NCBI GenBank assembly: GCA_927911745.1
Contig: CAKMQF010000082.1
Location: 1 to 22,266, forward strand
Direction: 5' to 3'
Length of the DNA: 22,266 nt
From: an uncultured Gemella sp.
Lineage (GTDB): Bacteria; Bacillota; Bacilli; Staphylococcales; Gemellaceae
Below, in pieces: positions 1,022-22,266 of the stretch (positions are counted from its first letter, which is position 1; every line of letters starts with the position of its first letter). Below the pieces are notes generated by a model, which was given only the letters and a program-made list of their open reading frames with translations, had not been told where the DNA came from and searched no databases. Position numbers and translations under genes: made by a program.

Positions 1022-2836
1022 ATGAAAAAAATAATAAAAAATAACAAAAGTTGTTAGTTCTAGTTTAGCTTTAACATTGTTATTAGCAGGTTGTGCTACT
1101 AATCAAAATAAGAAAACAGGGGATATTACAAAACCATCGGTTGAATTTAAAACTTTGGTTCAAAATGATGGAAATGCGGTATCAGATAGTCATTTAAAAG
1201 TAGGAATCTTATCAGCAGATCCACTTACAGGAATGTTTAATCCAATATTCTTCTTACAAGCAACGGATTATTATGTTATGAGAGATACAATGCTTTATAC
1301 TTTTGCATTGGATAAAGACTACAGATTAAAACAAGATGATAATGAAGCTCCTGCGAAATTCCATTTAGATAAAGAGAAAAAAGAAGCAACGATTACTCTA
1401 AGGAAAGATCTGAAATGGAACAATGGTGAAGATGTTACTGCTGATGACGTAATTGCTACATATAATTTAATGGGGAATCCTAAGTATGTAGAAAACATCA
1501 GATATTCTTCTGATTATGAAGTAATTGAAGGAATGAAAGAATATCACGAAGGTAAAGCTTCATCGATAAAAGGTATAGAGAAAAAAGATGATAAAACAGT
1601 AGTAATTAAATACACAGACGTTAGACCATCATTACTTTGGGGTAACGGCTTTATCACTACATTCTTAAATAAAGCACAGGTCGAAGAAGCGTCTAAAGAT
1701 TTTGCTAAGTTTCTGGTGCTAATCTAAATACAAAACCATTATCATATGGTCCATATTACTTAGACAAACAGGTTAATGGAGAAAGTGTTCTAGCCAAACA
1801 AAATCCACATTTCTTTAATAAAGATAAAGTGAAAGTAAAAGAAATAGAATTTAAAGCTGTGTCACCATCACAAGCAGCATCAGTTATTAAGAATGGAGAC
1901 GTAGACTACATTCGTTCACTTAGTCCAAATATTTGGGAAGGAATAAAAGACTCTAAAAATGGAGATGTTTTAGGTCAAACAGATCTATATGTGTCATATG
2001 TAGGATTTAAATTAGGTAAATTTGATAAAAAAGAAGGAAAAGTTCTAACTGATACAAGTGGAAAATTAGGAGATGCTAAACTAAGACAAGCTTTTGGATA
2101 CGCAGTGGATTGGGATCAAATTAATGATAAACTATTTAAAGGATTAAGATATACACCAACTGGTTCAGGATTCTTCCCACCTAGAATAGAATTAGCGGTT
2201 AACCCTAATGGTAAGAAATTCAAAAAAAGATGTAGAAAAAAGCTAAAAAAATTATTAGATGAAGCAGGATATAAAGATACTGATGGAGATGGATTACGTG
2301 AAAACAAAAATGGTGAGAAATTAGTATTTAATTATGCTGCAAGAAATACTGGTAGTGATTTAGATCAAGCGTTAGCAGATAATTTTATTAAATCATGGAA
2401 AGAAGTAGGTCTTGATGTTAAATTGGTAGATGGTAAATTATTATCACCGAAAGATTGGTCAACAAGAGTACAAGCAGATGATCCTTCTATTGATATTTTC
2501 CAAGGAGCATGGGGATTCTTTAATAATCCAAACCCTAACTATATAGCTGGTGGAACTTCTAAATTAAATTTACCTAGATATATAGATGAAACTCTAACGA
2601 AAGATTTAGAAGCGATTGATTCAAAAGATTCATTAGATGATATAAAATAAAAAGAAGCATTTAATAAATTTGATAATGATTTTGCTGAGGTTGCACCATG
2701 GATACCTTTAAGCTGGAGTACAGATATAGTATGGGTTAATAAACGAGTGAAAAATATAGATCTTAAAAAATACAATACTTTTGAACAACAATTCTATGAA
2801 CTAGAATTAACTTCAGATAAAGGTATTAAAAGCTAA
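1022..2836 (+). pseudogene. Oligopeptide ABC transporter substrate-binding lipoprotein (OppA-like), broken
   Basis: This encodes an extracellular solute-binding protein of the peptide/nickel family (SBP_bac_5), ~600 residues, which would be lipid-anchored outside the membrane and feed an Opp-type importer. Corrected for a one-base insertion in the A run 1036-1041, the start reads MKKIIKITKVV followed by a lipobox LLLAGC. Family features include the N-terminal FNPIFF region, LRKDLKWNNGEDVTADDV, and LRQAFGYAVD near the middle. As written it is broken by that insertion, by a one-base loss in the T run near 1711-1713, and by an in-frame TAA at 2648-2650, after which the same frame continues with KEAFNKF and APWIPLSW to the true stop at 2834-2836. 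Three extra As within 2223-2251 cancel each other. The nonsense codon is not a run-length error, so the gene may be truly dead. No permease or ATPase genes follow. Expression would depend on the T-box. Confidence 0.85.
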
Positions 2837-2951
2837 ATATAAATAAAAACATACGTTACTTGATAAGACTTATGAATAAAGTTTAAATGCTGATAGTTAG
2901 GTAAAGTGATTCAGAGAAGACTAAAATTTATAATCTAATAAAAAATATGTT

Positions 2952-3007
2952 GAGCGGCTTAATAAAATTAATTCCTAAGGGATTGTAATTTTTTAGTCGC
3001 TCTCTTT
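2952..3007 (+). terminator. Likely terminator after the oppA-like gene
   Basis: GAGCG (2952-2956) pairs with CGCTC (2998-3002). The AT-rich inner arms also pair around ATTCC/GGGAT, and a short T-rich tail follows. This long hairpin lies in the 380-base gap between the oppA-like gene and korA; the rest of that gap is AT-rich with only a weak promoter near its end. Confidence 0.6.
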
Positions 3008-3153
3008 AAAGGATTATTCCCCCTAAATATTATACAAATTTTTTAAAAAATGAAATAAAGGTCTTTATCAAAATAAATTGTGAAATAATAATATCTTATA
3101 AGAATTATTGTACTGATAATTAATATTATTGGATGGAAAAATTTTCTTAAATA

Positions 3154-8548: not shown

Positions 8549-8590
8549 CTTATGAGACAATTTAAGTCAGTTTATGAGGTAAAGAAATAG

Positions 8591-8691
8591 GTTACAGATT
8601 TGTAACTTTCACAAAGAAAAATACTAAAAAAATGAAAGAAACATCCATTTTTGTAATATTTTATAACTTATCTAAGTATTTATAGTAAAAT
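8591..8691 (+). promoter_or_regulatory. Two-box operator and promoter of surface protein A
   Basis: Box 1 is the palindrome GTTACAGATTTGTAAC (8591-8606). Box 2 is TTTGTAATATTTTATAA, with TTTGTAA at 8650-8656, 59 bases after box 1. GTAAAAT (8685-8691) follows 35 bases later and holds the likely -10 (TAAAAT). The expected -35 position reads ATAACT, far from consensus, so an activator binding at box 2 is plausible. The same layout recurs at 11872, 13728 and 17063. Confidence 0.7.
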
Positions 8692-8748
8692 ATACTTGTC
8701 TTATTATATTAATATTTATGATAAATTAGATAGAAGGAGAAATTATCA

Positions 8749-10344
8749 ATGAGGAAAAATACAAAAACAACACTTAAAGTGTTATCAGGAATAGCTTTAG
8801 CAGGGACTGTAGCTGTATTAACAGATAGTAATGCTGATGCTAAAACTTATAAACCAGAAGTAAGATATCAAGATGGGAAATACTTTGTAAAAACTTCTGA
8901 TCCAGCAACAAAAGGTAAATTAATGGCTTTTTCGATTAAAAAACCAAATTCAGATGAATTTTTACGTGTCTCAGACGAAGTAAATTATAATAATCAAGAA
9001 GTTGTAATTAAAAAAGGATTTGATGAACAGTTTGAAGGAGAAATCTCAGACAATACGCTTGTTGCTATTCAGGACGAAGAGAAAAGACCTAATGGATCTG
9101 AAGATGCTATAGATAATCCAACAGAACTTGCGAAATATAAACAAGAAGAAAAAGAATTTTTTGCTGAAGCAAAAGCTGGTGGAGTAACATTTAAGGACGC
9201 AATGAAGAAGGAAGAAAAACCTAAAGAAGAAGCAAAACCGACAACTACTTCAACAATAGCAGAACGTTTCATTGATTCTTTAACAGGTGAAGTAACATCA
9301 GATGGGAAACTTGTTTATACGATTAAAAGCAAAGAGCCTTTAAGTGGTGATGTTGTTTTGCGAATATATAATGATAGAAATGGTAAAACTGATAATCATT
9401 TACATTTTAATAAAACAGATGATAACACATATGTTGGGGATTATAGTATTAGTTCTCTGCAAAAAGGAGTTTATAAACCATATGAGCTAAGTTTTATAGA
9501 TTCTACCAATAAGGCCCATACTCTACATAGTTTTGATTTAATACCATTTCAGGATAAATCGAAGGTAGCTGTTGGAGAAACAATTGAAGAACCAATTAAT
9601 AGTCCGCAATTGCAAGGAAAGAAAATTGGAGTGTTTGCAAATTATAAAAAAGTAAAAAATGGAACAGTAGTAAAATACACTTTAAAAATAGCTAACGATA
9701 AATTAAAAGATAACGATTATCTTCTTTTACATAAGGAAGGGCAATTTGATCATGTTAATGCATCTGGAAATCATTTATATGATATTAATGGTAACAGGAT
9801 AGTATATATAGAAACAGATCGCTTAGATCCTGGTATCTATAATGTATTTGGCTTTGAGGGTAACAGCGATTATAAATTAGAAGATATTTATAATGAAGAT
9901 GGTTGGTTTGAAGTAGGAAATGAAGATGTTCGTCGTGAGGGACCAGCTGTTAGTGATACAGTTCCAACTACTAAACCAGATGAGACACCAAAACCGACTC
10001 CGGAGCCACAACCAAAGAAAGATGAAACGCCAAAACCAGGTAAAGAAGAAACATTAAAACCAAGTGAAACACCAAAGCCAAGTGAGACACCGAAACCAGG
10101 TAAAGGAGAAATGCCAAAATCAGAAAAAGATAGCAACTGGAATCCATTTGCTCAAGGACAAAAAGCAAAAGAAGGTTCAACTGAAGTTAAATCTGAAGCT
10201 GGAGAAGTAGCTACAAAACCTGTAAGTAACAGAAAAGAAGGAAAAGCATTACCTAACACAGGATTACAAACAACTTCTTATGGATTCTTAGCAGCAATCG
10301 TAGGATTATTCGGAGCAGTGGCTTTAAGAAGAAAAAATAGATAA
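8749..10344 (+). CDS. LPXTG-anchored surface protein A, unknown ectodomain
   Basis: A 531-residue secreted, wall-anchored protein. An N-terminal signal peptide (MRKNTKTTLKVLSG.., likely cleaved after NADA) is followed by ~120 mostly acidic residues. A beta-rich domain comes next (residues ~170-275, DGKLVYTIKS ... YSISSLQKGVYKP), then a second beta-rich domain (~290-390, with LDPGIYNVFGFEG). A proline/lysine wall-spanning segment (~403-460, KPxETP units) leads to NPFAQGQK and the LPNTG sorting signal with RRKNR tail. I recognise no named adhesin or NEAT domain. Start: ATG 8749 with GAAGGAG upstream. Its promoter region, last ~70 residues and terminator nearly match those of surface protein B, while the ectodomain differs. 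It is probably under control of the two-box operator upstream. Confidence 0.9.
   Translation: MRKNTKTTLKVLSGIALAGTVAVLTDSNADAKTYKPEVRYQDGKYFVKTSDPATKGKLMAFSIKKPNSDEFLRVSDEVNYNNQEVVIKKGFDEQFEGEISDNTLVAIQDEEKRPNGSEDAIDNPTELAKYKQEEKEFFAEAKAGGVTFKDAMKKEEKPKEEAKPTTTSTIAERFIDSLTGEVTSDGKLVYTIKSKEPLSGDVVLRIYNDRNGKTDNHLHFNKTDDNTYVGDYSISSLQKGVYKPYELSFIDSTNKAHTLHSFDLIPFQDKSKVAVGETIEEPINSPQLQGKKIGVFANYKKVKNGTVVKYTLKIANDKLKDNDYLLLHKEGQFDHVNASGNHLYDINGNRIVYIETDRLDPGIYNVFGFEGNSDYKLEDIYNEDGWFEVGNEDVRREGPAVSDTVPTTKPDETPKPTPEPQPKKDETPKPGKEETLKPSETPKPSETPKPGKGEMPKSEKDSNWNPFAQGQKAKEGSTEVKSEAGEVATKPVSNRKEGKALPNTGLQTTSYGFLAAIVGLFGAVALRRKNR
9967..10125 (+). repeat. KPxETP-type wall-spanning repeat segment in surface protein A
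   Basis: Degenerate 18-base units encode KPDETP, KPGKEET, KPSETP and KPSETP. Such proline-rich segments extend wall proteins through peptidoglycan. The unit number is a likely site of slippage. Confidence 0.7.
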
Positions 10345-10361
10345 TATTTAATATTCTCTTA

Positions 10362-10401
10362 AATAGACTATAGAGCATTAATTGTTCTATAGCCTATTTT
10401 T
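10362..10401 (+). terminator. Terminator of surface protein A
   Basis: AATAGACTATAGA (10362-10374) pairs with TCTATAGCCTATT (10386-10398), 12 of 13 positions, followed by Ts. The sequence is shared with the terminator of surface protein B at 13648, where the single mismatch is paired. Confidence 0.85.
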
Positions 10402-10575
10402 CCATTAGTTCAACTTTTGATGAATTTAATTCTTATGTTTTTTAATTTTTTAGAAATTTGATAATTGTTAAGAGACTTAAAAGAACAAATTTCAAAATAA
10501 AATTTGTAAAAACTAGTGATTAAATAAATAATAATTATAAAATTTGGAGTTTGCCGAGGTGGATTCAAGGTACCC

Positions 10576-10604
10576 TTGACACTTTTTGAAATTTATATTA
10601 TAAT
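10576..10604 (+). promoter_or_regulatory. Consensus promoter of the abiF RNA
   Basis: TTGACA (10576-10581) and TATAAT (10599-10604) match the consensus perfectly with a 17-base spacer, giving a start near 10611. This is the best promoter in the window and it drives a ~60-base structured RNA and, by read-through, the HEPN gene. The rest of 10402-10575 is AT-rich with no ORF. Confidence 0.9.
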
Positions 10605-10610
10605 TTAATT

Positions 10611-10670
10611 AGATATCAATGTCCCCATTCCTTTTAGGCAGTTACGACTGACATGGGGACTCTTTTTTTT
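10611..10670 (+). ncRNA. abiF-type structured RNA upstream of the HEPN gene (candidate RNA antitoxin)
   Basis: A short RNA of ~60 bases is predicted between the promoter's start point (~10611) and a T run (10663-10670). Outer stem: GTCCCCAT (10621-10628) with ATGGGGAC (10653-10660), eight perfect pairs and the only GC-rich stretch nearby. Inner hairpin: CAGT (10639-10642) with ACTG (10647-10650) and a TACG loop. A lopsided internal loop (TCCTTTTAGG against AC) lies between them. The stem plus T run also forms a terminator, so most transcripts should stop before abiF. A conserved 'abiF RNA' motif upstream of Abi_2 genes has been described by comparative genomics; position and shape match it, but I could not run a covariance search. 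Confidence 0.78.
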
Positions 10671-10682
10671 AGGAGATTTTAC

Positions 10683-11651
10683 ATGAGCGAATTAATACAT
10701 TTAGAATTTAACGAACAAATACAACTTTTTAAAGATAGAAATATGACATTTAAAGATGAATTAAATGCCATTCAGAAATTACAGCATATTAATTACTATA
10801 AAATAAAGGAATTTGCAGAACCTTTTTGTACTAAAAAAGAAGGATTATTAGATTATAGCAATATATCTTTTGAATACGTACTTAAGAGATATTATAATGA
10901 TAAACATCTAAGAATGAATCTATTTGATGCAATTGAAAATATTGAAGTTTCTATTAAAACAAATCTTTCGCATGTTTTAGGTTCTGGGAAAATGGGAGCG
11001 TATGGATATTTAAAATTCTTTAGTTGGTGTAATAGGAATGAATATTGTACATATTACCTAAGAGATAAAGAGAAAGAATTTAAAACAAAATTCACTAAAT
11101 ATTTAACTACAACTACAAATAATGAAATAAAAAGAAAAATAAGAAATTCAAATTTTGAGTTTCCGCCAGTATGGTTAATGGTTAATATCCTTACATTTGG
11201 TGATTTAGTTAAAATTATAGAATTATTATCTACATCTAAATTGAAAAAACTAGCAAATGTATATGGAATAACAGGAGAAGAGTTATTATCATGGTTAAAA
11301 ACTTTAAATTTAGTTCGTAATTTATGTGCACATAATTCTAATATTATAGACTTAAAATTAAAAACTACTCCTAAAATTCATGAAAAATGGAAAGATATAT
11401 TATACGTTACAAAAAGTGATAAATATACAAATAGATTAGCTAGCGTTTTATGCATCATTAATACATTAGTAGGGAAAATAAACCCTAATTATAATTTCAA
11501 AAGTATAAAATTGTCGTTAGATGAGATAACTACTAAAAATGATAGTTATTCAGAAATGTTAGGATTTAAAGATTATGGTTCTTTAGAAAAAATTTATGAA
11601 GATAAAGTCAGAAGTAGAAGAAAGAAAATTAAGAAAAAAAAGAGAAGATAA
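10683..11651 (+). CDS. abiF: AbiF/AbiD family (Abi_2) HEPN-domain abortive-infection protein
   Basis: A 322-residue protein of the Abi_2 family, HEPN RNases related to lactococcal AbiD/AbiF and proposed relatives of Cas13. The N-terminus (LIHLEFNEQIQLFKDRNM, then INYYKIKEF) and FDAIENIEVSIKTNL are typical of the family. The HEPN active-site motif RxxxxH appears as RNLCAH (residues ~218-223). The tail is very basic (RRKKIKKKKRR). Start: ATG 10683, seven bases after AGGAG (10671-10675). An in-frame ATG at 10653 lies inside the terminator stem and lacks a binding site. The gene follows the T run of the structured RNA immediately, so expression requires read-through, as in type III toxin-antitoxin loci. 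Predicted role: RNA cleavage causing growth arrest or phage defence, restrained by the upstream RNA. The frame is intact. Confidence 0.88.
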   Translation: MSELIHLEFNEQIQLFKDRNMTFKDELNAIQKLQHINYYKIKEFAEPFCTKKEGLLDYSNISFEYVLKRYYNDKHLRMNLFDAIENIEVSIKTNLSHVLGSGKMGAYGYLKFFSWCNRNEYCTYYLRDKEKEFKTKFTKYLTTTTNNEIKRKIRNSNFEFPPVWLMVNILTFGDLVKIIELLSTSKLKKLANVYGITGEELLSWLKTLNLVRNLCAHNSNIIDLKLKTTPKIHEKWKDILYVTKSDKYTNRLASVLCIINTLVGKINPNYNFKSIKLSLDEITTKNDSYSEMLGFKDYGSLEKIYEDKVRSRRKKIKKKKRR

Positions 11652-11771
11652 GGGGCTGCCCCAAAAGTCCTAAAATTTAACAAAAATTCATATAAAAACT
11701 CAAAAACGCAGAAGTTTATTGTTATCTAAATTCACTTTATAAAAGTTTTTTAGATATCTAATAAAACTGTA

Positions 11772-11835
11772 AGGGATGATTCAACAAATCGATTTCTTAA
11801 GAAATCGGGATTTTTGAGTCACTCCCTATTTTTTT
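11772..11835 (+). terminator. Long hairpin terminator after abiF
   Basis: An imperfect stem begins at AGGGA (11772-11776) and ends at TCCCT (11823-11827). It is centred on the perfect 18-base palindrome CGATTTCTTAAGAAATCG (11790-11807) and followed by a T run (11829-11835). It stops transcription before surface protein B. Between abiF and this hairpin lies only a small GGGG-CTG-CCCC hairpin without a T tail and AT-rich DNA. Confidence 0.75.
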
Positions 11836-11871
11836 ATGAGACTAAAAGTTTAGCATAGTCAATATCTCTTA

Positions 11872-11972
11872 GTTACAGATTTGTAACTTTCGCAAAGAAA
11901 AATACAATAAATATGATAGAAATATCCAATTTTGTAACGTTTTATAATTTATATAAGTATTTATAGTAAAAT
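11872..11972 (+). promoter_or_regulatory. Two-box operator and promoter of surface protein B
   Basis: Box 1 GTTACAGATTTGTAAC (11872-11887) is identical to that of surface protein A. TTTGTAA of box 2 lies at 11931-11937 (59 bases on), and GTAAAAT is at 11966-11972 (35 bases on). The leader after the -10 (TTGTCTTATTATATT) is also shared with surface protein A. Confidence 0.7.
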
Positions 11973-12028
11973 ATAATTGTCTTATTATATTGACATTTTA
12001 GTTATTATTTTAAAAAGGAGAACAATAG

Positions 12029-13630
12029 ATGAAGAAAAAATTATTAACAAGTGCAGCAATTGCATCGTTTTTAACTGCAGCTGGTGTAGTAATACCTCAA
12101 ACAGATATTTTTGCAGTGGATACACCAAATACACCACACCCAAGTACACTTTCAAATGAACAGCCAAGTGAAAATACAAATTCAACAGAAAATAACGGTC
12201 TAGCTAAAGAATGGAATAAAATATATGATAAAAAAAAGGTTGATAGTTTTGCTGATTATTGGATAGAAAGTATCACAAGAGATAAAAACTATCTTACAAT
12301 AAAAACTAAAGATCATAATAGTGTTGATTATGTACATTATGTTGACGCTGAAAAGATTCCTACGCAATGGGATGCTCCAGGAGCACATATGTTAAACGCT
12401 ACTAAAATTGCCGATGATTTATATCGAGTAGATACAAATGAACTTGTTAAAGGAGAAAACGAAAATAAGAAGTTTATTTTGAATGCAATAAGTTTAGTAC
12501 CAGATTATTCTGATGATAAAAATAATTATACAACTCAAAATAGTAATATACTTAAAAAATATAAGGATAGTAATGGAAATATTAAGGAATCTTTTGCATA
12601 CGCTGCAGTAGAAGAATTAGATTTTAAAGATTTACATAAGTATGCTGATATAACACGAGTTGTAGGACCTAAAGCAACCGTAGAAAATAAACAAAAGTCA
12701 CCAGAAGTAGGAGATAAAGATTATGTAGTTTATACGGATAAATCTCAAGTTGAATTAAATGGTACTATTAAAACTACTATAAAATATAAACCAGGAGTGA
12801 AAAAATACTCTGATGTGTTAATTGAAAAATATGTAGGAAAAACAAGTGATGGAAAGCTAGGATTCGAAAATATTTATGGTTATATTTCTAAAGACTTTGT
12901 AATCAGTTTTGCTAATGATAAAGACGATAAGGATGATAAGGAACTAAATCTTCCAGGTTGGTATTCAATGGATAGTGAAGGAAATGATGTATTTTATACA
13001 TGGTTAAAAGGAATGGATCCTGGTCATTATCATATTACAAAATTATTTGGATTAGATTTAACAAAAGGTAACTTAGATAATTCAGAATTTACTATTGGTG
13101 AAAATGAGAAATTTGTTTATAGAACAGAAAGTGATTCAACTAAACCAAAAGATAGTAACCCAATTATAGAATCTACACCAACATCAAAACCAGGTGAAAC
13201 ACCAAAACCAAGTGAGACACCAAAACCAGGTGAAACACCAAAACCAAGCGAGACACCAAAACCTGATGAAACACCAAAACCGGATGAAACGTCAAAACCA
13301 GGAAAAGAGGAAATATTAAAACCAGGTGAAGCGCCAAAACCAGGAAAAGAAGAGACATTAAAACCAAGTGAAACACCGAAAGGTGATAAAAAAGAAGCGA
13401 CAAAATCTGAGAAAGACAACAGTTGGAACCCATTTGCTCAAGGACAAAAAGTAAAAGAAGGTTCAACTGAAGTGAAATCTGAAGGTGGAGAAGCAGCTGT
13501 TAAATCTGTAAGTAACAGAAAAGAAGGTAAAGCTTTACCTAACACAGGATTACAAACAACTTCTTATGGATTCTTAGCAGCAATCGTAGGATTATTTGGA
13601 GCTGTAGCTTTAAGAAGAAAAAATAGATAA
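12029..13630 (+). CDS. LPXTG-anchored surface protein B, unknown ectodomain
   Basis: A 533-residue wall-anchored protein. The signal peptide (MKKKLLTSAAIASFLTAAG.., likely cleaved after DIFA) is followed by a Ser/Thr/Asn-rich linker. Two beta-rich regions come next (residues ~70-165 and ~235-350). The second contains MDPGHYHITKLFG, comparable to LDPGIYNVFGFEG in surface protein A, hinting at a shared but diverged fold. The wall-spanning segment (~385-455) is a KPGETP/KPSETP repeat, then NPFAQGQK, LPNTG, a hydrophobic stretch and RRKNR. The start ATG 12029 follows AAAAGGAG. Outside the ectodomain, promoter, anchor and terminator nearly copy those of surface protein A. No known adhesin domain is recognised. 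Confidence 0.9.
   Translation: MKKKLLTSAAIASFLTAAGVVIPQTDIFAVDTPNTPHPSTLSNEQPSENTNSTENNGLAKEWNKIYDKKKVDSFADYWIESITRDKNYLTIKTKDHNSVDYVHYVDAEKIPTQWDAPGAHMLNATKIADDLYRVDTNELVKGENENKKFILNAISLVPDYSDDKNNYTTQNSNILKKYKDSNGNIKESFAYAAVEELDFKDLHKYADITRVVGPKATVENKQKSPEVGDKDYVVYTDKSQVELNGTIKTTIKYKPGVKKYSDVLIEKYVGKTSDGKLGFENIYGYISKDFVISFANDKDDKDDKELNLPGWYSMDSEGNDVFYTWLKGMDPGHYHITKLFGLDLTKGNLDNSEFTIGENEKFVYRTESDSTKPKDSNPIIESTPTSKPGETPKPSETPKPGETPKPSETPKPDETPKPDETSKPGKEEILKPGEAPKPGKEETLKPSETPKGDKKEATKSEKDNSWNPFAQGQKVKEGSTEVKSEGGEAAVKSVSNRKEGKALPNTGLQTTSYGFLAAIVGLFGAVALRRKNR
13181..13379 (+). repeat. KPGETP/KPSETP 18-base tandem repeats in surface protein B
   Basis: Units alternate as KPGETP and KPSETP, then KPDETP, KPDETS and longer KPGKEE variants. 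The regular first part (13184-13300) looks recently expanded; similar but fewer units occur in surface protein A. Confidence 0.8.
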
Positions 13631-13647
13631 TATTTAATATTATTTTT

Positions 13648-13688
13648 AATAGACTATAGAGTATTAATTGTTCTGTAGTCTATTTTTT
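13648..13688 (+). terminator. Terminator of surface protein B
   Basis: AATAGACTATAGA (13648-13660) pairs with TCTGTAGTCTATT (13672-13684), all 13 positions with one G-T pair, then Ts. It is homologous to the terminator at 10362. Confidence 0.88.
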
Positions 13689-13727
13689 GTTATTAAGGTT
13701 AATACTTTTTAGAGTTAGTATTTAGAA

Positions 13728-13827
13728 GTTACAAATTTGTAATTTTTCACCTTAATATGATATAAAAATGATGAAAATCATCAAATTTGTAATATTATAT
13801 TAGTTAGTTTAGCAATTAATGTAAAAT
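13728..13827 (+). promoter_or_regulatory. Two-box operator in front of the regulator remnant
   Basis: Box 1 holds the perfect 14-base palindrome TTACAAATTTGTAA (13729-13742). TTTGTAA of box 2 is at 13786-13792 (58 bases from the box 1 start) and GTAAAAT is at 13821-13827 (35 bases on). It is the best-conserved copy of box 1, although the gene it serves is dead. Confidence 0.65.
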
Positions 13828-13876
13828 AAAATATAAAGATCAAGAAAAGAAGAAAGCCTAAGGTCGATGAATATCT

Positions 13877-14322
13877 ATGAATAACAAATCTGAATATGGG
13901 AAAATATTTAAACAGCTGTTTTGAGTGAGAATTAAGGCTAAAAGAAGTGGTAGGAGATATTATTTCTACGCAAACATTAAGATGTTTCGAAGTTGATGAA
14001 ACGAGCATTTTATTAGTTGTTTTTGAGAAGTTGATATTGTAATGAGGCGGAAGAGGTAGGTAGAAAAATGATAGAAATGTTAGATTCAATAGGTATTACT
14101 TTGAGTCATATTAAACCAACATTTGCTGTTCATACTTATATATTACTTGCCCAAAATCAAGTTAAAGTCGTAGAATTGGCAAATAAATGCATTTGTCAAA
14201 TAGATGTATTAATAGATTTATATAATAGTAAAAAAGAAATAAATAATAGAAAAGACTATGTTGAGAGGTTTTATGAACTAAACAAAATGGAGCTTGAATT
14301 TGATTTTTTAAAAGTAGTATAA
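13877..14322 (+). pseudogene. Deleted remnant of an Rgg-like regulator
   Basis: This was a paralogue of the regulator at 17212. The N-terminal helix-turn-helix is readable across frame breaks: YGKIFKQL, then VVGDIISTQTLRCFEVDETS and VVFEKL. The sequence then jumps straight to the C-terminal part (CNEAEEVGRKMIEMLDSIG, LSHIKPTFAVHTYILLAQ, INNRKDYVERFYELNK, EFDF). About 480 bases of the middle are missing compared with the intact gene, with the junction near 14032-14042. A further 15 bases are lost at LLAQ|NQVKVV relative to LLAQIKLAQNKVEG, where the intact gene carries CTTGCTCA twice. A stop interrupts the start region (13922). It still has an operator-promoter upstream. The C-terminal part alone is an open frame from 14068. 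Confidence 0.85.
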
Positions 14323-14574
14323 ATATGTGTAACTCTAAATTTCTACTAAAATCTTTAAAATCTGCTACGAATGGTGTTTTATATCTAATTTGATATTGAT
14401 AGTTACTTTTAAAAATATTTTATGATAAAATATAATTAAATTATGATTTTAGGAAGGTATTGTAATAATCAACTTGGAGATCTAATCCAAATATTATATG
14501 AGTGAAATACTATATTTATAAATATATTGATTGTTTAGCGTTTAATTAATATTTAGTTTAACTAGGAGAAAAGA

Positions 14575-15501
14575 ATGAACGAAAAAAATATGCATGGAAG
14601 AATTTTTAAAAAGCTAAGAGAAGAAAGAGGTTATAAACTAAAAGATGTTGCAGGAGATGTTATATCTACAAGAACATTAACACGTTTTGAGGCAGATGAA
14701 ACGAGTCTACCAATTGCTACATTTGAAAAGTTATTAAAAAATTGTGATTTGGTTTCGCTTGATTATTTAATATATTATGTCAAGAATACTGAAATAGAAA
14801 CTACGGAGTTTGCAAAAAGAATGCAGGGGTATATAGAATCTGGTTCTTCAGTAGAGATAGTAAATGAATGTATGAAAGAATTAAAAAAGAGTGATATTAA
14901 ATTTGCTGTAAGGTTAGATATTTTAAATTTCATGCAACTAATAGAATGGAATGGTAGAAGTGAATTATTTGAAGAAAACAAAAGAATAATTAAGGAGAAG
15001 ATAGAGTCAACGAGTAAATTGGGATGGAGTGAGATACATGGACTCATAAATCTAATAAACTCAGCCTCAAGTGAGGATTATTCATGTGAGTATATTGATA
15101 GAGTTATTGAGGACTGTTTCCAAAATATTTATGATGGAAATTATCCGAATAGTTTATTTAATGGGGCATACTGTATGCTATTAATCTCTTCGTTATCATT
15201 TTTATCAAGAAATGGATACTATGAATTAGTGGAAAAGCAATGTAAAGAAACACTTATTAATTTTAATAAATTATCATCCTTATATGATAGATCGAAATAT
15301 TATATTGATGTTACAGAAATATTGGCTATGGTATATTTAAGTCAAAATAAAGAAGAAGGTATAGAGCTCGCAAATAAAGTATTAAAATATCGTAAAACAA
15401 TTGCAGAAAGTATTAATAATCCCTTGTATAAACAGAAAAGAGATATTAGTTATGAAAAATTTTGTGAAGTAAATAAAACCGGTATTGATTTTGAATTTTA
15501 G
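14575..15501 (+). CDS. Rgg/GadR/MutR-like transcriptional regulator (paralogue 1)
   Basis: A 308-residue cytoplasmic regulator. Residues ~7-60 form an XRE-type helix-turn-helix (GRIFKKLREERGYKLKDVAG, then STRTLTRFEADETSLP). The remaining ~240 residues form a helical repeat domain of the Rgg_C/TPR-like type, which in streptococcal Rgg proteins binds short secreted peptides. It ends in NKTGIDFEF, shared by all copies here. The start ATG follows AGGAG by seven bases. No two-box operator of the 8591 type is found upstream, only AT-rich DNA with possible -10 elements near 14421-14436. The next paralogue starts 81 bases downstream with no terminator between, so they may be co-transcribed. I see no convincing signal-peptide gene beside it. 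Confidence 0.88.
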   Translation: MNEKNMHGRIFKKLREERGYKLKDVAGDVISTRTLTRFEADETSLPIATFEKLLKNCDLVSLDYLIYYVKNTEIETTEFAKRMQGYIESGSSVEIVNECMKELKKSDIKFAVRLDILNFMQLIEWNGRSELFEENKRIIKEKIESTSKLGWSEIHGLINLINSASSEDYSCEYIDRVIEDCFQNIYDGNYPNSLFNGAYCMLLISSLSFLSRNGYYELVEKQCKETLINFNKLSSLYDRSKYYIDVTEILAMVYLSQNKEEGIELANKVLKYRKTIAESINNPLYKQKRDISYEKFCEVNKTGIDFEF

Positions 15502-15582
15502 TGTATAATTAATTAGAATAAACCGTTAAAATATACGAAGAGATATTAAAAAATAAAAGTATTTTAAATATGGAGAAGAAAA

Positions 15583-16510
15583 ATGGAGAAGAAAAATAAA
15601 CATGGAAGTATTTTTAAAAAGTTAAGGGAGGAAAGAGGATATAAGTCAAAGGACGTTGCAGGTGATGTTATATCTACAAGAACATTAACTCGTTTCGAGG
15701 CAGATGAAACAAGCCTACCTATCGCTACATTTGAAAAATTATTAGAAAAATTGTGGTATACTTCCTATAGATTATTTAGCATATTACAATAATTGTATCG
15801 AAGATGAGAATACTGAATTTTCAAGAAGAATGGATAAATATCTGAAATCAGGTTTTACAGCAAAGGTAATAAATGAATGTAAAAGAGAGCTGAAAAAGAA
15901 GGAAATTGATTTTGTACGAAGGATATATATATTATTATTCATGATTATTTTAAATCATAGAGATGATAGTGAGTTTTTTGATGAAAATAAAAGAATAATT
16001 AAAGAAAAAATAGAGTCAACGAATAAATTAGGATGCTATGAATTGGGTTTGCTGGCTATATTAATAGATATATCTTCACGAGAAGATTTTACTGTTGAGT
16101 ATATTGATAGGATAATTGAAGAATGTATACATAATATTTCTACTATAGATTATCTGAGTAATTATATATCTTTTGCGTATTGTGGGTTATTATTAGCCTT
16201 GTTAAAATTTTTATCAAGAAATGGTTACTATAGCATAGGTGAAAAGCGATGCAAAGAAGTGCTTAATTATTTAGAAAAACATCCACTGTTATTTAATTAT
16301 GAACATTTTTATTTTAAAATTATTGGATTATTGGCAATGATATATTTGCATCAAAATAAAATAGAAGGTGTAGAACTTGCGAATAAGATGTTAAAATATA
16401 AGAATGTGGAAGTAGAAATTATAGATGACCCTTCTGTTAAAGTGATGGCTGATATTGATTATAAGGTTTTATGTAAAGCTAATAAAACAGGTATTGATTT
16501 TGAATTTTAA
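15583..16510 (+). CDS. Rgg/GadR/MutR-like transcriptional regulator (paralogue 2), one frameshift
   Basis: A tandem copy of the preceding regulator, 308 residues after correction. The helix-turn-helix (GSIFKKLREERGYKSKDVAG, STRTLTRFEADETSLPIAT) differs from paralogue 1 at only a few positions, while the C-terminal helical domain has diverged (conserved islands: NECKRELKK, FFDENKRIIKEKIEST, FLSRNGYY, NKTGIDFEF). The frame breaks at the A5 run 15746-15750; with four As it reads LLENCGILPIDYLAYY and joins the downstream frame. Start ATG 15583, with GGAGAAG just before; the ATG at 15570 is in a different context. A terminator follows at 16543. Similar DNA-reading heads with different sensor domains suggest two inputs acting on overlapping targets. 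Confidence 0.83.
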
Positions 16511-16542
16511 ACGTTATATGATATAGATATAATGTATCAGGA

Positions 16543-16583
16543 GAGTATTTAAGATGATTAATTTTTCTTAAATACTTTTTTTT
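16543..16583 (+). terminator. Terminator after regulator paralogue 2
   Basis: GTATTTAAGA (16545-16554) pairs with TCTTAAATAC (16566-16575), followed by eight Ts. It closes the paralogue 1-2 unit. Confidence 0.82.
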
Positions 16584-16620
16584 GTTTGTTTTATGATGAA
16601 GTTCGTTTTTAGATAATATT

Positions 16621-16734
16621 AATCGGACAAATTTGTCTGATTATTTTTATTTAACCCTTATTTTCAGCTATATTTATTTCGAATCGGACAATGTTTTCTG
16701 ATTATGAAAAAAGTGCTTTAATCCGTGATAAAAT
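16621..16734 (+). promoter_or_regulatory. Variant two-box operator and promoter before the small unknown ORF
   Basis: Two related imperfect palindromes start at 16621 and 16682. Each begins AATCGGACAA and ends TCTGATT; the first contains the perfect core GACAAATTTGTC (16626-16637). They are 61 bases apart, and TAAAAT (16729-16734) lies 36 bases after the TTTGT-equivalent position of the second box. This is the same geometry as the 8591-type promoters, with CGGACA arms in place of GTTACA. Confidence 0.55.
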
Positions 16735-16769
16735 AAGCATACGATAACTTATAGAAATTGGAGATGCTT

Positions 16770-17056
16770 ATGAAAATAGAAATCAACACTTATTAAATGA
16801 GAGACAATGTGGCTTAAGTATGTATCTATTTGGATTAAGCATACTAGGGGAATTATCTGATAATTTTACAAATGAAAGTAATTTCGTAGAAAATATAGTA
16901 GAAGATCAAGGTGAAAATATGCAACGTGACGCACATGACACTCAAAAGATAACGCTACTAAAATGTAATAAGTGTCATAGTGACAAAAATGACCTTGTTG
17001 ATTACAAGAAAAAAGAGATCTCGACTGTAGTAGGATTATTGTCGGTGTTTAATTAG
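16770..17056 (+). CDS. Small unknown ORF with a CxxC pair, probably frameshifted near its start
   Basis: I do not recognise this protein. The longest open frame (16820-17056, 78 codons) has no ribosome binding site, but it remains open upstream to about 16763. GGAG (16760-16763) precedes an ATG at 16770 in another frame that stops after eight codons. A one-base break near 16787-16790 would give a product of ~95 residues reading MKIEIN.. LLNERQCGLSMYLFGLSILGELSDN. The C-terminal part has KCNKCHSDKND (one CxxC) and ends VVGLLSVFN. It lies between regulator paralogues, right behind the variant operator, so it may be a target of one of them. It could also be a decayed remnant. Confidence 0.4.
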
Positions 17057-17062
17057 TCAAAT

Positions 17063-17163
17063 TTATCAAATTTGTAAGTTTTCGATGTATTCTAGTATAA
17101 AAATGATGAGAAATTATCAATTTTGTAATATTTTATTAGTAAATTTTGTAATTATTGTAAAAT
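17063..17163 (+). promoter_or_regulatory. Two-box operator and promoter of regulator paralogue 3
   Basis: Box 1 is degenerate on its left side, ATCAAATTTGTAA with TTTGTAA at 17071-17077. Box 2 TTTGTAA lies at 17122-17128, 59 bases from the aligned box 1 start; a further TTTGTAA is at 17145-17151. GTAAAAT is at 17157-17163, 35 bases after box 2. This suggests the regulator controls itself. Confidence 0.6.
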
Positions 17164-17211
17164 AGTATTATAGGTAAAGGATTGAAAGAAAATATTGGGT
17201 GGAGGAAATTT

Positions 17212-18141
17212 ATGACAAATAAATCAATTCATGGGAAGGTGTTTAAAGAATTACGACTTGAACGTGGAGTCAAATTAAAGGATGCAGCTGGAGAAGTGAT
17301 TTCTGCACAAACACTAAGAAGATTTGAAGCGGATGAGACGAGTGTTTCGCTTGTAGTGTTTGAAAAACTGCTTGGAAGTCTTGGGATAGGCTATATTGAA
17401 TATTTAACAGAATTACTTCCTAGATTAGAGTCTGATTATAAGGAATTGACAATTGATGTACTAAAATTTGCTAGAGTTGGTAACTATTCTGGAATGATGA
17501 CTCATCTAGTTAGAAAATTAAAGGATGAGAAAATCACCTTATCCGAGAGATTATTTATAGCTGTTATGATTACTGGATATTCAGGGATACTTCCAGAAAA
17601 ATTTAAAGAAAATAACAAGATTCTTTTAAAGTATTTCCAAGGAATTGAGATGCTAAGCTTGAATGAAAAAGCAGCTCTAAATGGGATAATTACTACTAGT
17701 AGTACAAAAGAGATACCTTTAGAATTTGTTAGAAGGACTATAGCGGACAGTCTAAGTTATAATCCAGATGTTGAAGGGATAAATATTATATCAACTATTA
17801 TTTCATTTAGAATTTTACATAGCAGTATTGGATTTCTGCTAAGAAGTGGAAATTGTAATGAAGCTGAAGAAGTATGTAAAAAAGTAATTGAAATATTAGA
17901 TTTAATAGATATTACATTAAGTCATATCAAACCAACATTTGCTGTTCATACATACATACTACTTGCTCAGATAAAACTTGCTCAAAATAAAGTTGAAGGT
18001 GTAGAGTTAGCCAATAAATGTATTAGACAAATCGATGCCTCTATAGACTTATATAATAGCACTAAAGAAATAAATAACAGAAAAGATTATGTTGAGAGAT
18101 TCTATGAATTAAATAAAACAGGAGTCGAATTTGATTTCTAA
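17212..18141 (+). CDS. Rgg/GadR/MutR-like transcriptional regulator (paralogue 3)
   Basis: An intact 309-residue regulator with helix-turn-helix at residues ~5-60 (HGKVFKELRLERGVKLKDAA, SAQTLRRFEADETSVSLVVF) and a long helical C-terminal domain (LSHIKPTFAVHTYILLAQIK, INNRKDYVERFYELNKT, EFDF). Start ATG 17212 is chosen because GGAGG (17201-17205) precedes it by six bases; the upstream TTG frame lacks one. It is the intact relative of the remnant at 13877, and both carry the same two-box promoter, as do the two surface-protein genes. It is therefore the best candidate for the regulator of that set. By family, it probably senses a short peptide, but none is seen nearby. Confidence 0.9.
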   Translation: MTNKSIHGKVFKELRLERGVKLKDAAGEVISAQTLRRFEADETSVSLVVFEKLLGSLGIGYIEYLTELLPRLESDYKELTIDVLKFARVGNYSGMMTHLVRKLKDEKITLSERLFIAVMITGYSGILPEKFKENNKILLKYFQGIEMLSLNEKAALNGIITTSSTKEIPLEFVRRTIADSLSYNPDVEGINIISTIISFRILHSSIGFLLRSGNCNEAEEVCKKVIEILDLIDITLSHIKPTFAVHTYILLAQIKLAQNKVEGVELANKCIRQIDASIDLYNSTKEINNRKDYVERFYELNKTGVEFDF

Positions 18142-18159
18142 ATGAATGTTAAATATTTA

Positions 18160-18206
18160 AAGAGTTACGTTAGTAAGCCGTGATTTACTAGCTAACTCTT
18201 TTTTAT
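18160..18206 (+). terminator. Terminator between regulator paralogue 3 and mutS
   Basis: AAGAGTTA (18160-18167) pairs with TAACTCTT (18193-18200). An inner TAGTAA/TTACTA stem lies beyond a small internal loop, and six or more Ts follow. Confidence 0.85.
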
Positions 18207-18307: not shown

Positions 18308-21069
18308 ATGAAATATACTCCAATGATAGAACAATATCTGAAGATAAAAAAAGATTATCAGGACATGTTTTTATTTTACCGTCTTGGTGATTTTTATGAG
18401 ATGTTCTTTGAAGATGCGACTAGAGCGTCAAAAATATTAGAAATAACCTTAACTGCTCGTGATGGAGGAGCTGAAAAAATTCCTATGTGTGGAGTTCCAT
18501 TTCATTCATCAGCAACGTACATTGATACTTTAGTAAATAACGGATATAAAGTAGCTATCTGTGAACAAGTTTCAGAACCTGGTCAAGGGAAAATTGTAGA
18601 GCGTAAAGTAGTTCAAGTAATCACACCAGGAACTTATATGAACTATAAAACTATGATGAGAATAATTACCTTGGTAGTGCATATGTGAAGGATAATAATA
18701 TCTATTTCGCATTTTGTGATATTATGACAGGGGATAGCCGTTGTACTGTCCTAAAAACTATGGCTGATCTACAAGACGAAGTATTAAAAAATAATATTAA
18801 AGAAGTAATTAGCATAAAAGATCAAGAGTTGGATATTAGTGCTTATATTACTGAAGTTGAATTAACTAATGATATTACTAAGGAAAAGACGAGTAATCTT
18901 ACTGACAACAATCTACGTGTAGCATGTGATGTTCTTTTAGACTATATTGAAAAAACTCAAAATAAAGATATTTCAAGCCTTAAAGATTTTGAAGTATATT
19001 TCAAAGATAAGTTTGTTTATATGACAAACTACTCATTAAAAAACTTAGAAGTTACTCAGAACATGGCTAATGGTGGTAAGAAGGGTTCTCTTCTTAGTAT
19101 TGTGGATAAGACTTCAACAGCTGCGGGATCAAGAAAACTTAAAAAATGGTTAGAAAATCCATTACTAGATCTTAAAGAAATTAAAAAAACGTCAGGAAAT
19201 CGTAGAAGATTTTACTAAACATTACTTTGAAAAAGCTGATGTAAAAACTAGTTTGAAAGAAGTGTATGACCTTGAGAGAATTTCTACAAAAGTTTCTTAT
19301 AATATAGTAAGTCCTAAGGAATTATTAAATCTAAAGAAAACATTAGCTCAAATACCAGAAATTAAGAAATTGTTATTAGGATTTGAATCTAACAAATTAA
19401 AAGATATCGCAGAGAATATCGATGAATTAACAGATTTATACGACTATCTTGAAGCGACAATCCATGAAGAAGCTGGTCAAACAGTTAAAGAAGGTAATGT
19501 TATTAAATTAGGTTTTAATGAAGAGTTAGATAGTTATAAGAATGCTAGTAAAATGGTAATAGAATTTTACTAGAAATTGAAGAACGTGAAAAAGAGAGAA
19601 CTGGGGTTAAAAATCTAAAAGTCGGATACAATAAGATTTTCGGTTACTTTATCGAAGTATCTAAAGTAGGGCTTAAGACTATAGATCCAACAGAACTAGG
19701 TTATCATAGGAAACAAACACTTTCTAACTGTGAGAGATTTGTATCTGAAGAACTGAAAAAAGTTGAAGAACATATCGTAAACTCTAAGACAAAAATTGAA
19801 GAGTTAGAATTACAATTATTCCAAGAAGTTAAGACGAAAATTCATAATTATATCGTAAGATTACAAAGAGTTGCTAATACTCTAAGTGATATTGATGTGT
19901 TCGTTTCATTATCTGATGTAGCGGAAGAATATGGTTATGTAAAACCTGAATTCAATGATAATAATATTATTGATATTGTTGATGGCCGTCATCCGATTGT
20001 TGAAAGAAATGTGAGTGCTGATAGTTATATTAGTAATGATTGCAAAGTAGACAAAGATAATAATATCTTGCTTATTACAGGGCCGAATATGTCTGGTAAA
20101 TCTACTTATATGAGACAACTTGCTCTTATAGTGATTCTTGCCCAAATAGGATCATTTGTTCCGGCGACTTCTGCAAATTTACCGATTTTTGATAAAATAT
20201 TTACTAGAATAGGTGCGAGTGATGATCTTGCAGGTGGTAAATCAACGTTTATGGTTGAGATGATTGAGGCGAAGAATGCCTTAGTCGAATCTACAGCAAA
20301 TTCATTATTAATTTTTGATGAAATTGGTCGTGGAACATCGACGTATGACGGTATTGCCTTAGCTCAATCAATATTAGAATATATTAATAATACTATTAAA
20401 TGTAAAACATTATTCTCAACTCACTATCATGAGCTTACAAAGTTAGAAAATATTACCCAGGGAATAAAGAATATTCACGTTTCTGCGAAAGAAGATCACG
20501 GGAAATTAATTTTCTTATATAAAATTAATGAAGGACCTATCGAGAAGAGTTATGGTATTCATGTAGCACAGCTTGCCCATCTACCAGAAGATGTTATTGT
20601 AGGTGCTAATAAAATATTAAGAGAATTAGAAAGTGGAAATAAAGGTAGTGAGGACCTTGTTGATAATGCTAGATATAATAAGGTATTATTAAATGAAACT
20701 TCAACACAAGAATCTGAAGAAAAACTAAGAGAAAAAATACGTAAAGAACTTGAACAAGAATACAGCAGTCGAGTAGTTAAAGAAGAGTCCGAAAAAATAG
20801 ATGAAGAAGCTTTAAGAGAACTACTTCGTTCTGAATTAGAAAAAGAACTTAAAGAAGAGTTGGAGAAAACTATTAGAAAACAATTAAAAGCTGAAGAAAA
20901 ATCGAAGAAAAATTATGCAAAATTACAATTGGATTTTGATGGTGATAATGAGAAATTTGATGAAATCAAAAAGCAATTAGAGAGTGTAAACTTCTTAGAA
21001 ACAACACCAATGCAGGCATTCAATCTTCTTTATGAATTACAGAGAAAAATAAGTGAGGATGTGAAATAA
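18308..21069 (+). pseudogene. mutS: DNA mismatch repair protein MutS, three frame breaks as written
   Basis: A mismatch-recognition ATPase that starts post-replicative repair with MutL. All domains are present: the mismatch-binding N-terminus ([18 protein letters not shown], including the Phe-x-Glu that stacks on the mispair), connector and lever/clamp regions, then Walker A GPNMSGKSTYMRQL, Walker B LLIFDEIGRGTSTYDG, and STHYHEL. The tail (~100 residues) is a highly charged coiled coil. The corrected length ~920 residues is slightly long for the family. Frame breaks: one base lost near 18653, an extra A in the A7 run 19183-19189, and one A lost in 19550-19553; each is repaired by one base. 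Start ATG 18308 follows GAAAGGA. mutL begins five bases after the stop. Whether these breaks are real or sequence error is the key question for this window. Confidence 0.9.
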
Positions 21070-21074
21070 ATTAA

Positions 21075-22266
21075 ATGGGAAAAATAAATATATTATCTGC
21101 AGAATTATCAAATAAAATAGCGGCGGGAGAAGTAGTCGAAAGACCTTCTTCTGTTGTCAAAGAGCTTGTAGAAAACTCTATCGATGCAGGAAGTACTAAT
21201 ATAAAAATTATAATTAAAGAATTTGGTATTCAACAAATTAGAATTATTGACAATGGAAGTGGTATTTCTAATGATGATTTAGCACGTGCATTTTTACGTC
21301 ATGCGACTAGTAAGATAAGTGCTGACTATGATTTATTTCACATAGAAACGTTAGGTTTTAGAGGTGAGGCATTAGCGAGTATTTCATCTGTGAGTAAAGT
21401 AACGATAAAAAGTTGTGCGGGAGAAGCGCAAGGGAAGATATTAGTTCTTGAAGGCGGAAAAGTAGTTTCTGAGGAATATTACGCACCTATTAAAGGAACT
21501 GATTTAAGTGTAGAAAATTTATTTTACAATACACCGGCAAGGCTGAAATATCTGCGTAATCCACATACAGAACAAGCTAATATTACTAATATTATTCATA
21601 AGTTTGCCCTATCTTATCCTAATGTAGCTTTCGAACTTCATGTAGATGGTAAGATCACCTTTAAAACATACGGTGATGGTGATGTCCATAAGATTTTATC
21701 TAAGATCTATAATATGGGCGTTGCTAGAAAAATGATTGAATTTGGTGGTGCAAACGATGATTACAAAATATTTGGTTATATTTCTGTTCCTGAAGAGACG
21801 AGAGCTAGTAAGAACTATATAAATATTTTTATCAATGGTCGTTATATTAAAAACTATGGAATTCAAAATGCTATAATCGATGCATACGGAACACTATTAA
21901 TGATAAATAGGTATCCATTATGTGTTATTAATATAGAGATGGATCCGATTTTATTAGATGTTAACGTTCATCCAACTAAGCAAGAAGTGAGATTATCGAA
22001 AGAAGCGGAGTTAATACGTCTAATAAAAGAAGTTATCGCAGAAAGATTAAGTAATTATACATATATTCCACAAGGAATGAATAATGTTCTTACTAAAAAA
22101 GAAAAAGCGAAAATCGAAAAAATTAATTTCTTAGATGAACTAGATAATAAATTTGGAGATGTAGAAGACAAGAATGTTTTTTCAGAAGAGAAAAAAAGAA
22201 CCTGAGGTTGTTTCTAAGAAGTTTTAACACTCTCTAATTGTCTTTTTGATTTCAATCAAATTTCTC
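21075..22266 (+). CDS. mutL: DNA mismatch repair protein MutL, N-terminal part (cut by window end, one frame break)
   Basis: MutL links MutS to downstream repair steps. The GHKL ATPase domain is complete: NKIAAGEVVERPSSVVKELV, ENSIDAG, DNGSGI, RHATSKI, TLGFRGEALASI and YNTPARLKYL. The second domain carries the conserved DVNVHPTKQEVR. The open frame stops at 22203-22205 after an A7 run (22191-22197); with six As it would read on as EEKKEPEVVSKKF, into the poorly conserved linker. A full MutL has ~600 or more residues, so the C-terminal dimerisation domain should lie beyond the window. The gene starts five bases after mutS with only a weak binding site inside the mutS end, so translation is probably coupled. 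Confidence 0.92.

Follow-up and report, generated by a model that had tools for sequence, protein, structure and literature searches.

A twin-box promoter layout in Gemella and its probable readers, relatives of known peptide-sensing regulators

Gemella is a mouth bacterium. In a 22,266-nucleotide stretch from an uncultured Gemella sp. (contig CAKMQF010000082.1; the whole stretch is called the window here), we found five promoters of one layout, with two boxes (A and B) upstream of the -10 element, near genes for LPXTG surface proteins and for regulators with a predicted RRNPP fold. This twin-box layout is probably read by these relatives of known peptide-sensing regulators. In the account that we favor and regard as fairly likely, the RRNPP regulators are self-activating, two dimers bind each promoter, and each regulator governs itself and a few surface proteins. 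The promoters are as follows.

8592..8691, + strand: P1, T-type, promoter of LPXTG gene 1 (A at 8592-8605, B at 8643-8656, -10 at 8686-8691)
11873..11972, + strand: P2, T-type, promoter of LPXTG gene 2 (A at 11873-11886, B at 11924-11937, -10 at 11967-11972)
13729..13827, + strand: P3, T-type, promoter of a broken A-type regulator gene (A at 13729-13742, B at 13779-13792, -10 at 13822-13827)
17064..17163, + strand: P4, T-type, promoter of an intact A-type regulator gene (A at 17064-17077, B at 17115-17128, -10 at 17158-17163)
16625..16734, + strand: P5, G-type (A at 16625-16638, B at 16686-16699, -10 at 16729-16734)

A first-pass annotation of the window had described P1 to P4 as four copies of one spaced pattern. 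A strict search, with a pattern picked after looking at the data, found it at exactly these four places in the window and in none of 100 dinucleotide shuffles. The distances given for it were correct (59, 59, 58 and 59 bases from the first box to TTTGTAA, then 35 bases to GTAAAAT in four of four copies). Two details needed correction: the half-sites are separated by 4 bases and not 6 (TTACA-GATT-TGTAA), and the left half is not TTACA in every copy, the one at 17064 reading TATCA. Conservation had been said to be confined to the surroundings of the boxes. This is true of the four cross pairs among P1-P4, which are 55-59% identical outside the boxes and 80-86% inside. It does not apply to the LPXTG pair (P1 and P2, 66/83 positions or 80% identical outside the boxes) or the regulator pair (P3 and P4, 56/82 or 68%). 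Judged by sequence, P1-P4 count as two duplicated pairs and not as four independent cases.

The set was also larger than four, a fifth copy (P5) having been overlooked at 16625-16734. It carries GGACAAATTTGTCT at 16625, GGACAATGTTTTCT 61 bases further at 16686, and TAAAAT at 16729, 43 bases after the start of the second box. A looser scan for the design, with thresholds chosen after the fact, returned P1-P5 and nothing else in the window (mean 0.22 and maximum 2 matches in 100 shuffles). Against P1-P4 it shows 66-69% agreement in the box columns and 28-33% in the rest; because of this low agreement outside the boxes it is not a recent duplicate. The upper box of P5 lies in a perfect palindrome of 24 bases (16620-16643) that runs into T residues and also scores as a terminator, and a double role as operator and terminator is possible from its sequence.

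The -35 region had been called poor, and it is: the best match to TTGACA is 2 or 3 of 6 in all five window promoters (spacers 16-18), in contrast to the neighboring Abi gene with its 12/12 promoter-like match at 10576. We tabulated 13 promoters, five from the window, seven from a second locus at purA in relatives, and one from elsewhere in the genome of the relative G005. At best, their -35 regions match at 3 of 6 positions or fewer in 11 cases and at 4 of 6 in the other two. The distance between boxes falls into two classes about one helical turn apart, 50-52 bases (five promoters) and 60-62 bases (eight; 61 or 62 for the LPXTG promoter of G001). Box B starts 43 bases ahead of the -10 in all 13, a spacing that was preset in the table; it was obtained freely for P1-P4, P5, the regulator promoters of G005 and G006 and the G005 YSIRK promoter. 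Since many of the promoters are orthologs or duplicates of each other, the independent cases number about five.

Regulators, box types and helix-3 residue 33

The genes around the promoters are listed below.

8749..10344, + strand: LPXTG surface protein 1, 531 amino acids (direct reading shows LPNTG, a hydrophobic stretch and an RRKNR tail)
12029..13630, + strand: LPXTG surface protein 2, 533 amino acids (39% identity with protein 1 across 394 columns)
13877..14322, + strand: broken A-type regulator (pieces correspond to residues 1-14, 20-54 and 210-309 of the 17212 protein)
14575..15501, + strand: B-type regulator, 308 amino acids (helix 3 STRTLTRF)
15583..16510, + strand: second B-type regulator, split across two frames (may be a sequencing error)
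16750..17056, + strand: behind P5, likely what is left of a YSIRK surface-protein gene (weak)
17212..18141, + strand: intact A-type regulator, 309 amino acids (helix 3 SAQTLRRF; predicted RRNPP fold)

Both surface proteins have the LPXTG features (motif, hydrophobic stretch and charged tail), with LPNTG and the tail read in each; the TIGR01167 score of protein 1, 15.7 bits, is slightly below the cut-off of 15.9. The pieces of the broken A-type regulator lie in different frames and its middle is absent; its helix 3 reads STQTLRCF. The second B-type regulator matches the 14575 protein at 89% over residues 1-55 and at 50% over residues 55-308, in frames 1 and 2. The region after P5 perhaps derives from the first part of a YSIRK surface-protein gene that has decayed: it aligns weakly with the start of the G005 purA LPXTG protein (22.6% over 106 columns, E 0.001, uncorrected and from a small comparison).

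All nine aligned regulators carry an N-terminal XRE-type helix-turn-helix (HTH_3, PF01381). The 17212 protein is identical to a protein named from Gemella sp. 27098_8_149. Its AlphaFold model (pLDDT 85.2) has the C-terminal TPR domain in the Rgg/PrgX/ComR arrangement and matches Rgg2, Rgg3, PrgX, ComR and ElrR over its length. The whole-chain root-mean-square deviation of 7-9 is large because of domain movement, the domain angles being different. Sequence profiles agree weakly (Listeria Lmo0325 at E 1.3e-6, Rgg2 at E 0.0036). The window and purA regulators are thus RRNPP regulators by predicted fold. The first-pass assignment to the Rgg family holds to the extent that proteins of RRNPP/Rgg fold stand beside LPXTG genes; the Rgg C-terminal model was not among the 12 NCBIfam families matched by the nine regulators at E up to 1 (presence of that model in the library was unconfirmed). 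Judging from the model, a peptide signal for these regulators is likely.

The boxes are of two types. P1-P4 and the G005 promoter have T-type boxes (TTACA-like), and P5 and the purA promoters have G-type boxes (GACA-like). The second base of the left half-site is G in 16/16 G-type boxes and in 0/10 T-type boxes. G-type boxes fit the ComR-box form GACA-N4-TGTC, several as GACG; the T-type left halves (TTACA, TATCA, ATCCA) fall outside it. Zinc, iron, redox and copper-type (TACA-N2-TGTA) operators were dropped as candidates because the spacing or the core differs. The ComR structural report gives the box core as GACA-N4-TGTC and describes crystal contacts of R35 to G6 and of R39 to A5 and G4 (PMC5131891). 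By the sequence in the Protein Data Bank (TVRQLIRIE), R35 and R39 of ComR align with positions 33 and 37 of the Gemella proteins. R35 is the ComR residue that touches the G of GACA, a base at which the two box types differ. Position 37 is Arg in all nine intact regulators. Position 33 is Arg in 8/9 aligned regulators and Gln in the 17212 protein and its broken copy, so that eight regulators have the ComR pair of arginines and the 17212 protein has Gln, then Arg. Among the matches listed for the 17212 protein (120 of 783), all 120 close homologs have Gln-33; among those listed for the B-type relatives (120 of 599), position 33 is Arg in 115, Lys in 2 and unreadable in 3. These sequences fit a matched change of residue 33 and the box base, seen in one lineage on the protein side.

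The purA locus and the relatives

Genome-wide statements in this work cover the relatives. A regulator profile found two relatives each in G001, G004, G005 and G006 (one of the two in G004 has a stop inside), and these four genomes are of the G. haemolysans group. No relatives were found in the other five genomes of the genus at E up to 1, or in six further genomes of the family at E 1e-10. The order at purA is B-type regulator, LPXTG gene(s), A-type regulator in all four genomes. In G001, G005 and G006 a two-box promoter with GACA-type boxes stands at the B-type regulator gene and again at the first LPXTG gene; in G004 the two-box promoter was found at the regulator only, with TAGAAT as the -10.

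A profile built from 11 promoters (R1) was run on 15 genomes of the family, with about 150 of the 1,403-3,033 first-look candidates per genome scored. It gave seven matches at E ≤ 2.5e-8, all at purA and all in the four regulator-holding genomes; six of the 11 training rows are six of these seven, so only the G004 match is independent, together with the G005 promoter. Next came two opposite-strand matches at the same palindromes (E 6e-5 and 4e-4), and then a T-type two-box promoter ahead of a lone YSIRK gene in G005 (E 6e-4). Some match at E up to 1 was present in 13/15 genomes, the best in the 11 genomes without regulators being E 0.004. The pattern is not randomly scattered: its strict form occurs in 0/9 Gemella genomes, and strong R1 matches are confined to purA. 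Further copies ahead of LPXTG genes, which the first-pass annotation had named as potential support, are present at this unlinked locus, with GACA-type boxes. A profile of P1-P4 alone gave nothing convincing in the nine genomes (best E 0.027). One made from P1-P4 and the G005 promoter recovered that promoter and otherwise nothing better than E 0.006. The four relatives have 17-34 LPXTG anchor matches per genome, of which 0-2 carry this promoter by profile search.

Two further observations were made at purA. A hairpin lies between the LPXTG gene and the A-type regulator gene in four of four genomes (L009 10256-10785, L010 7830-8359, L011 6489-7018, L012 8924-9453). Its loop is nearly fixed (CACTTTTGGTTGTTTTTTCG), its stems vary by pairing-preserving changes, and it overlaps a 14-codon hydrophobic open reading frame (ORF) in some genomes. 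Rfam at gathering thresholds gave no match in 93,269 bases, the hairpin included. The second LPXTG gene of the G001 locus (L011 7144-9645) carries a HEIGH zinc-protease-like motif.

Proposed mechanism and alternatives

In the self-activation account, one dimer would bind the 14-bp palindrome of box B, centered 36 bases upstream of the -10, and help polymerase at a promoter without a good -35. A second dimer would bind box A about 5 or 6 helical turns higher on the same face and cooperate with the first, perhaps via a short loop. It would steady the box B dimer, as is the case with two PrgX dimers. The 17212 regulator would read the TTACA-type boxes (P1-P4), and the B-type regulators of the window and purA would read those of GACA type (P5 and the promoters at purA); Gln replacing Arg at position 33 of helix 3 perhaps gives the different box preference. 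A two-box promoter ahead of a regulator gene would provide feedback. The pairing of proteins with boxes, activation, cooperation between dimers and peptide control are what we infer. The local regulon of the first-pass annotation survives in part: the design does precede regulator and LPXTG genes, and does so at a second locus. Because the window has two box types, its regulators do not all share a single regulon; the block may instead hold parts of two related surface-protein control systems.

Several results count against this account, besides the preset 43-base spacing in the promoter table. A small-ORF scan with ribosome-site and hydrophobicity filters found no peptide gene beside the window regulators. 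On the protein side the Arg-Gln contrast is one lineage, the 17212 protein and its broken copy. G005 has a T-type promoter yet only Arg-33 regulators; this promoter may have outlived its regulator. The A-type regulator of G005 has Ala-32 like the 17212 protein, where the other three have Val, which makes position 32 an alternative. No convincing two-box promoter was found ahead of the purA A-type genes or the 14575 gene of the window. The profile of P1-P4 alone misses both the G005 T-type promoter and P5. A one-box T-type pattern with one mismatch matched 21 times in nine genomes, and its reversed control 28 times; a single T-type box by itself thus carries no signal.

Other explanations were weighed against the same data. 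The regulators may repress, two dimers closing a DNA loop over the promoter until a peptide releases it. PrgX has the same fold and, according to PMC5552905, acts as a repressor from two sites that lie 91 bp from each other on one helix face. In the Gemella promoters, however, box B is found upstream of the -35 position, clear of the -10, and the poor -35 across the 13 promoters favors activation; we consider repression unlikely. It is also unlikely, and in our estimate a little more so, that some other Gemella regulator reads the boxes, with the neighboring RRNPP-like genes as fellow travelers. The isolated T-type promoter of G005, in a genome without a Gln-33 regulator, would suit such a reader. 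Against it, strong promoters occur in 4/4 regulator-holding genomes and 0/11 others (with the overlap in R1 training noted above), the promoters precede the regulator genes themselves, and the operator core is one known from a protein with the same fold. Mere shared ancestry of duplicated upstream DNA, with no function, would explain why P1 resembles P2, and P3 resembles P4, outside the boxes too (80% and 68%). It would not explain P5, whose agreement with P1-P4 is concentrated in the box columns (66-69% and 28-33% elsewhere), or the geometry retained by the purA promoters, and we hold it to be very improbable.

A more far-reaching version of the self-activation account is doubtful and is offered as a tentative proposal. 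In it, duplicated RRNPP activators were insulated from each other by a change between G-C and T-A at the base pair under helix-3 position 33 together with the Arg/Gln change, each promoter would need two dimers whole helical turns apart, and the modules would be gained or lost. If it is true, modules have come and gone at several chromosomal sites, and strains differ in surface proteins and in their switch.

Among known systems, ComR and ScuR/SarF of streptococci are similar in having an RRNPP fold and the GACA-N4-TGTC core seen in the Gemella G-type boxes, and the helix-3 motifs are alike (SVRTLIRFE in Gemella, TVRQLIRIE in ComR). Published work on these regulators describes a fixed distance from palindrome to -10 and paralogous boxes told apart by single bases (PMC6703854). 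Unlike ComR, the Gemella system has two boxes per promoter, LPXTG surface-protein targets, and T-type boxes that lack the G next to a regulator with Gln in the place of R35. PrgX of pCF10 is a repressor, and one of its two sites is described as just half a palindrome (PMC5552905); the Gemella boxes differ in being 50-62 bp apart and upstream of the core promoter. With regard to PrgX-type looping, what we observed is the helical phasing of the two box-distance classes. ElrR, an Rgg-like positive regulator of the Enterococcus faecalis elr surface-protein operon, which encodes WxL and LPXTG proteins, has 11% sequence identity. Rgg2/Rgg3 (SHP receptors) and Rgg144 differ from the window regulators, next to which the scan turned up no gene for a short hydrophobic peptide.

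RRNPP regulators control competence, conjugation and virulence in Gram-positive bacteria. Little seems to be published on them in Gemella: in the literature searched, a single paper mentions Gemella along with RRNPP, in passing, and no Gemella or two-site Rgg surface-protein system is named. RRNPP regulators and ComR-like boxes are known; the tandem boxes, the surface-protein targets and the putative Gln-type reading would be new. If the self-activation account is right, the switch is linked to a small share of the surface proteins. Gemella would then hold a natural paralogous regulator/operator pair differing at one structurally understood contact, so that operator specificity and its evolution could be tested with natural proteins alone.

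The block between ftsW and mutS

All five window promoters fall inside one block.

8558..18198, no strand: ftsW-mutS block missing from relatives (bounds are the end and restart of the alignment to G001 and G005)

The gap between ftsW and mutS is 9,641 bases in the window and 94-492 bases in 7/7 relatives with both flanks on one contig; for two further relatives the mutS side of the gap was available. The genes flanking the block are 88-96% identical to their counterparts in the four regulator-carrying genomes. Within its gap G004 retains a trace of LPXTG protein 1 (29 residues, 62% identity, E 3.6e-4), so a related block formerly stood there. The right half of the block (B-type regulator, B-type copy, P5 with the remnant, A-type regulator) has the order of the purA locus. 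No integrase was recognized by eye among the window ORFs, and no search aimed at integrases was made. No relatives were found among viral contigs and phage records, or by a single-query search of GTDB contigs; an alignment query of the latter gave two G. haemolysans contigs and no new material.

Single-base insertions or deletions relative to the relatives were noted at 3798, 6357, 7970, 7987, 18651, 19189 and 19552-19555 of the window. Many are in A or T runs and within conserved genes, and mutS is split into four ORFs. They look like sequencing errors, and the pseudogene calls are therefore uncertain. An Abi_2-type gene (10576-11651, E 5e-38) lies between the two LPXTG genes inside the block, the 12/12 match that precedes it (at 10576) being of the sigma-70 type. 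A repeat of about 180 bases at 11641-11830 is 78-85% identical to copies in L028, L030, L115, L012 and L010/L014. Near the ends of mutS and mutL, at 20950-21005 and 22207-22266, stand the two arms of an inverted repeat (about 60 bases, 93% identity).

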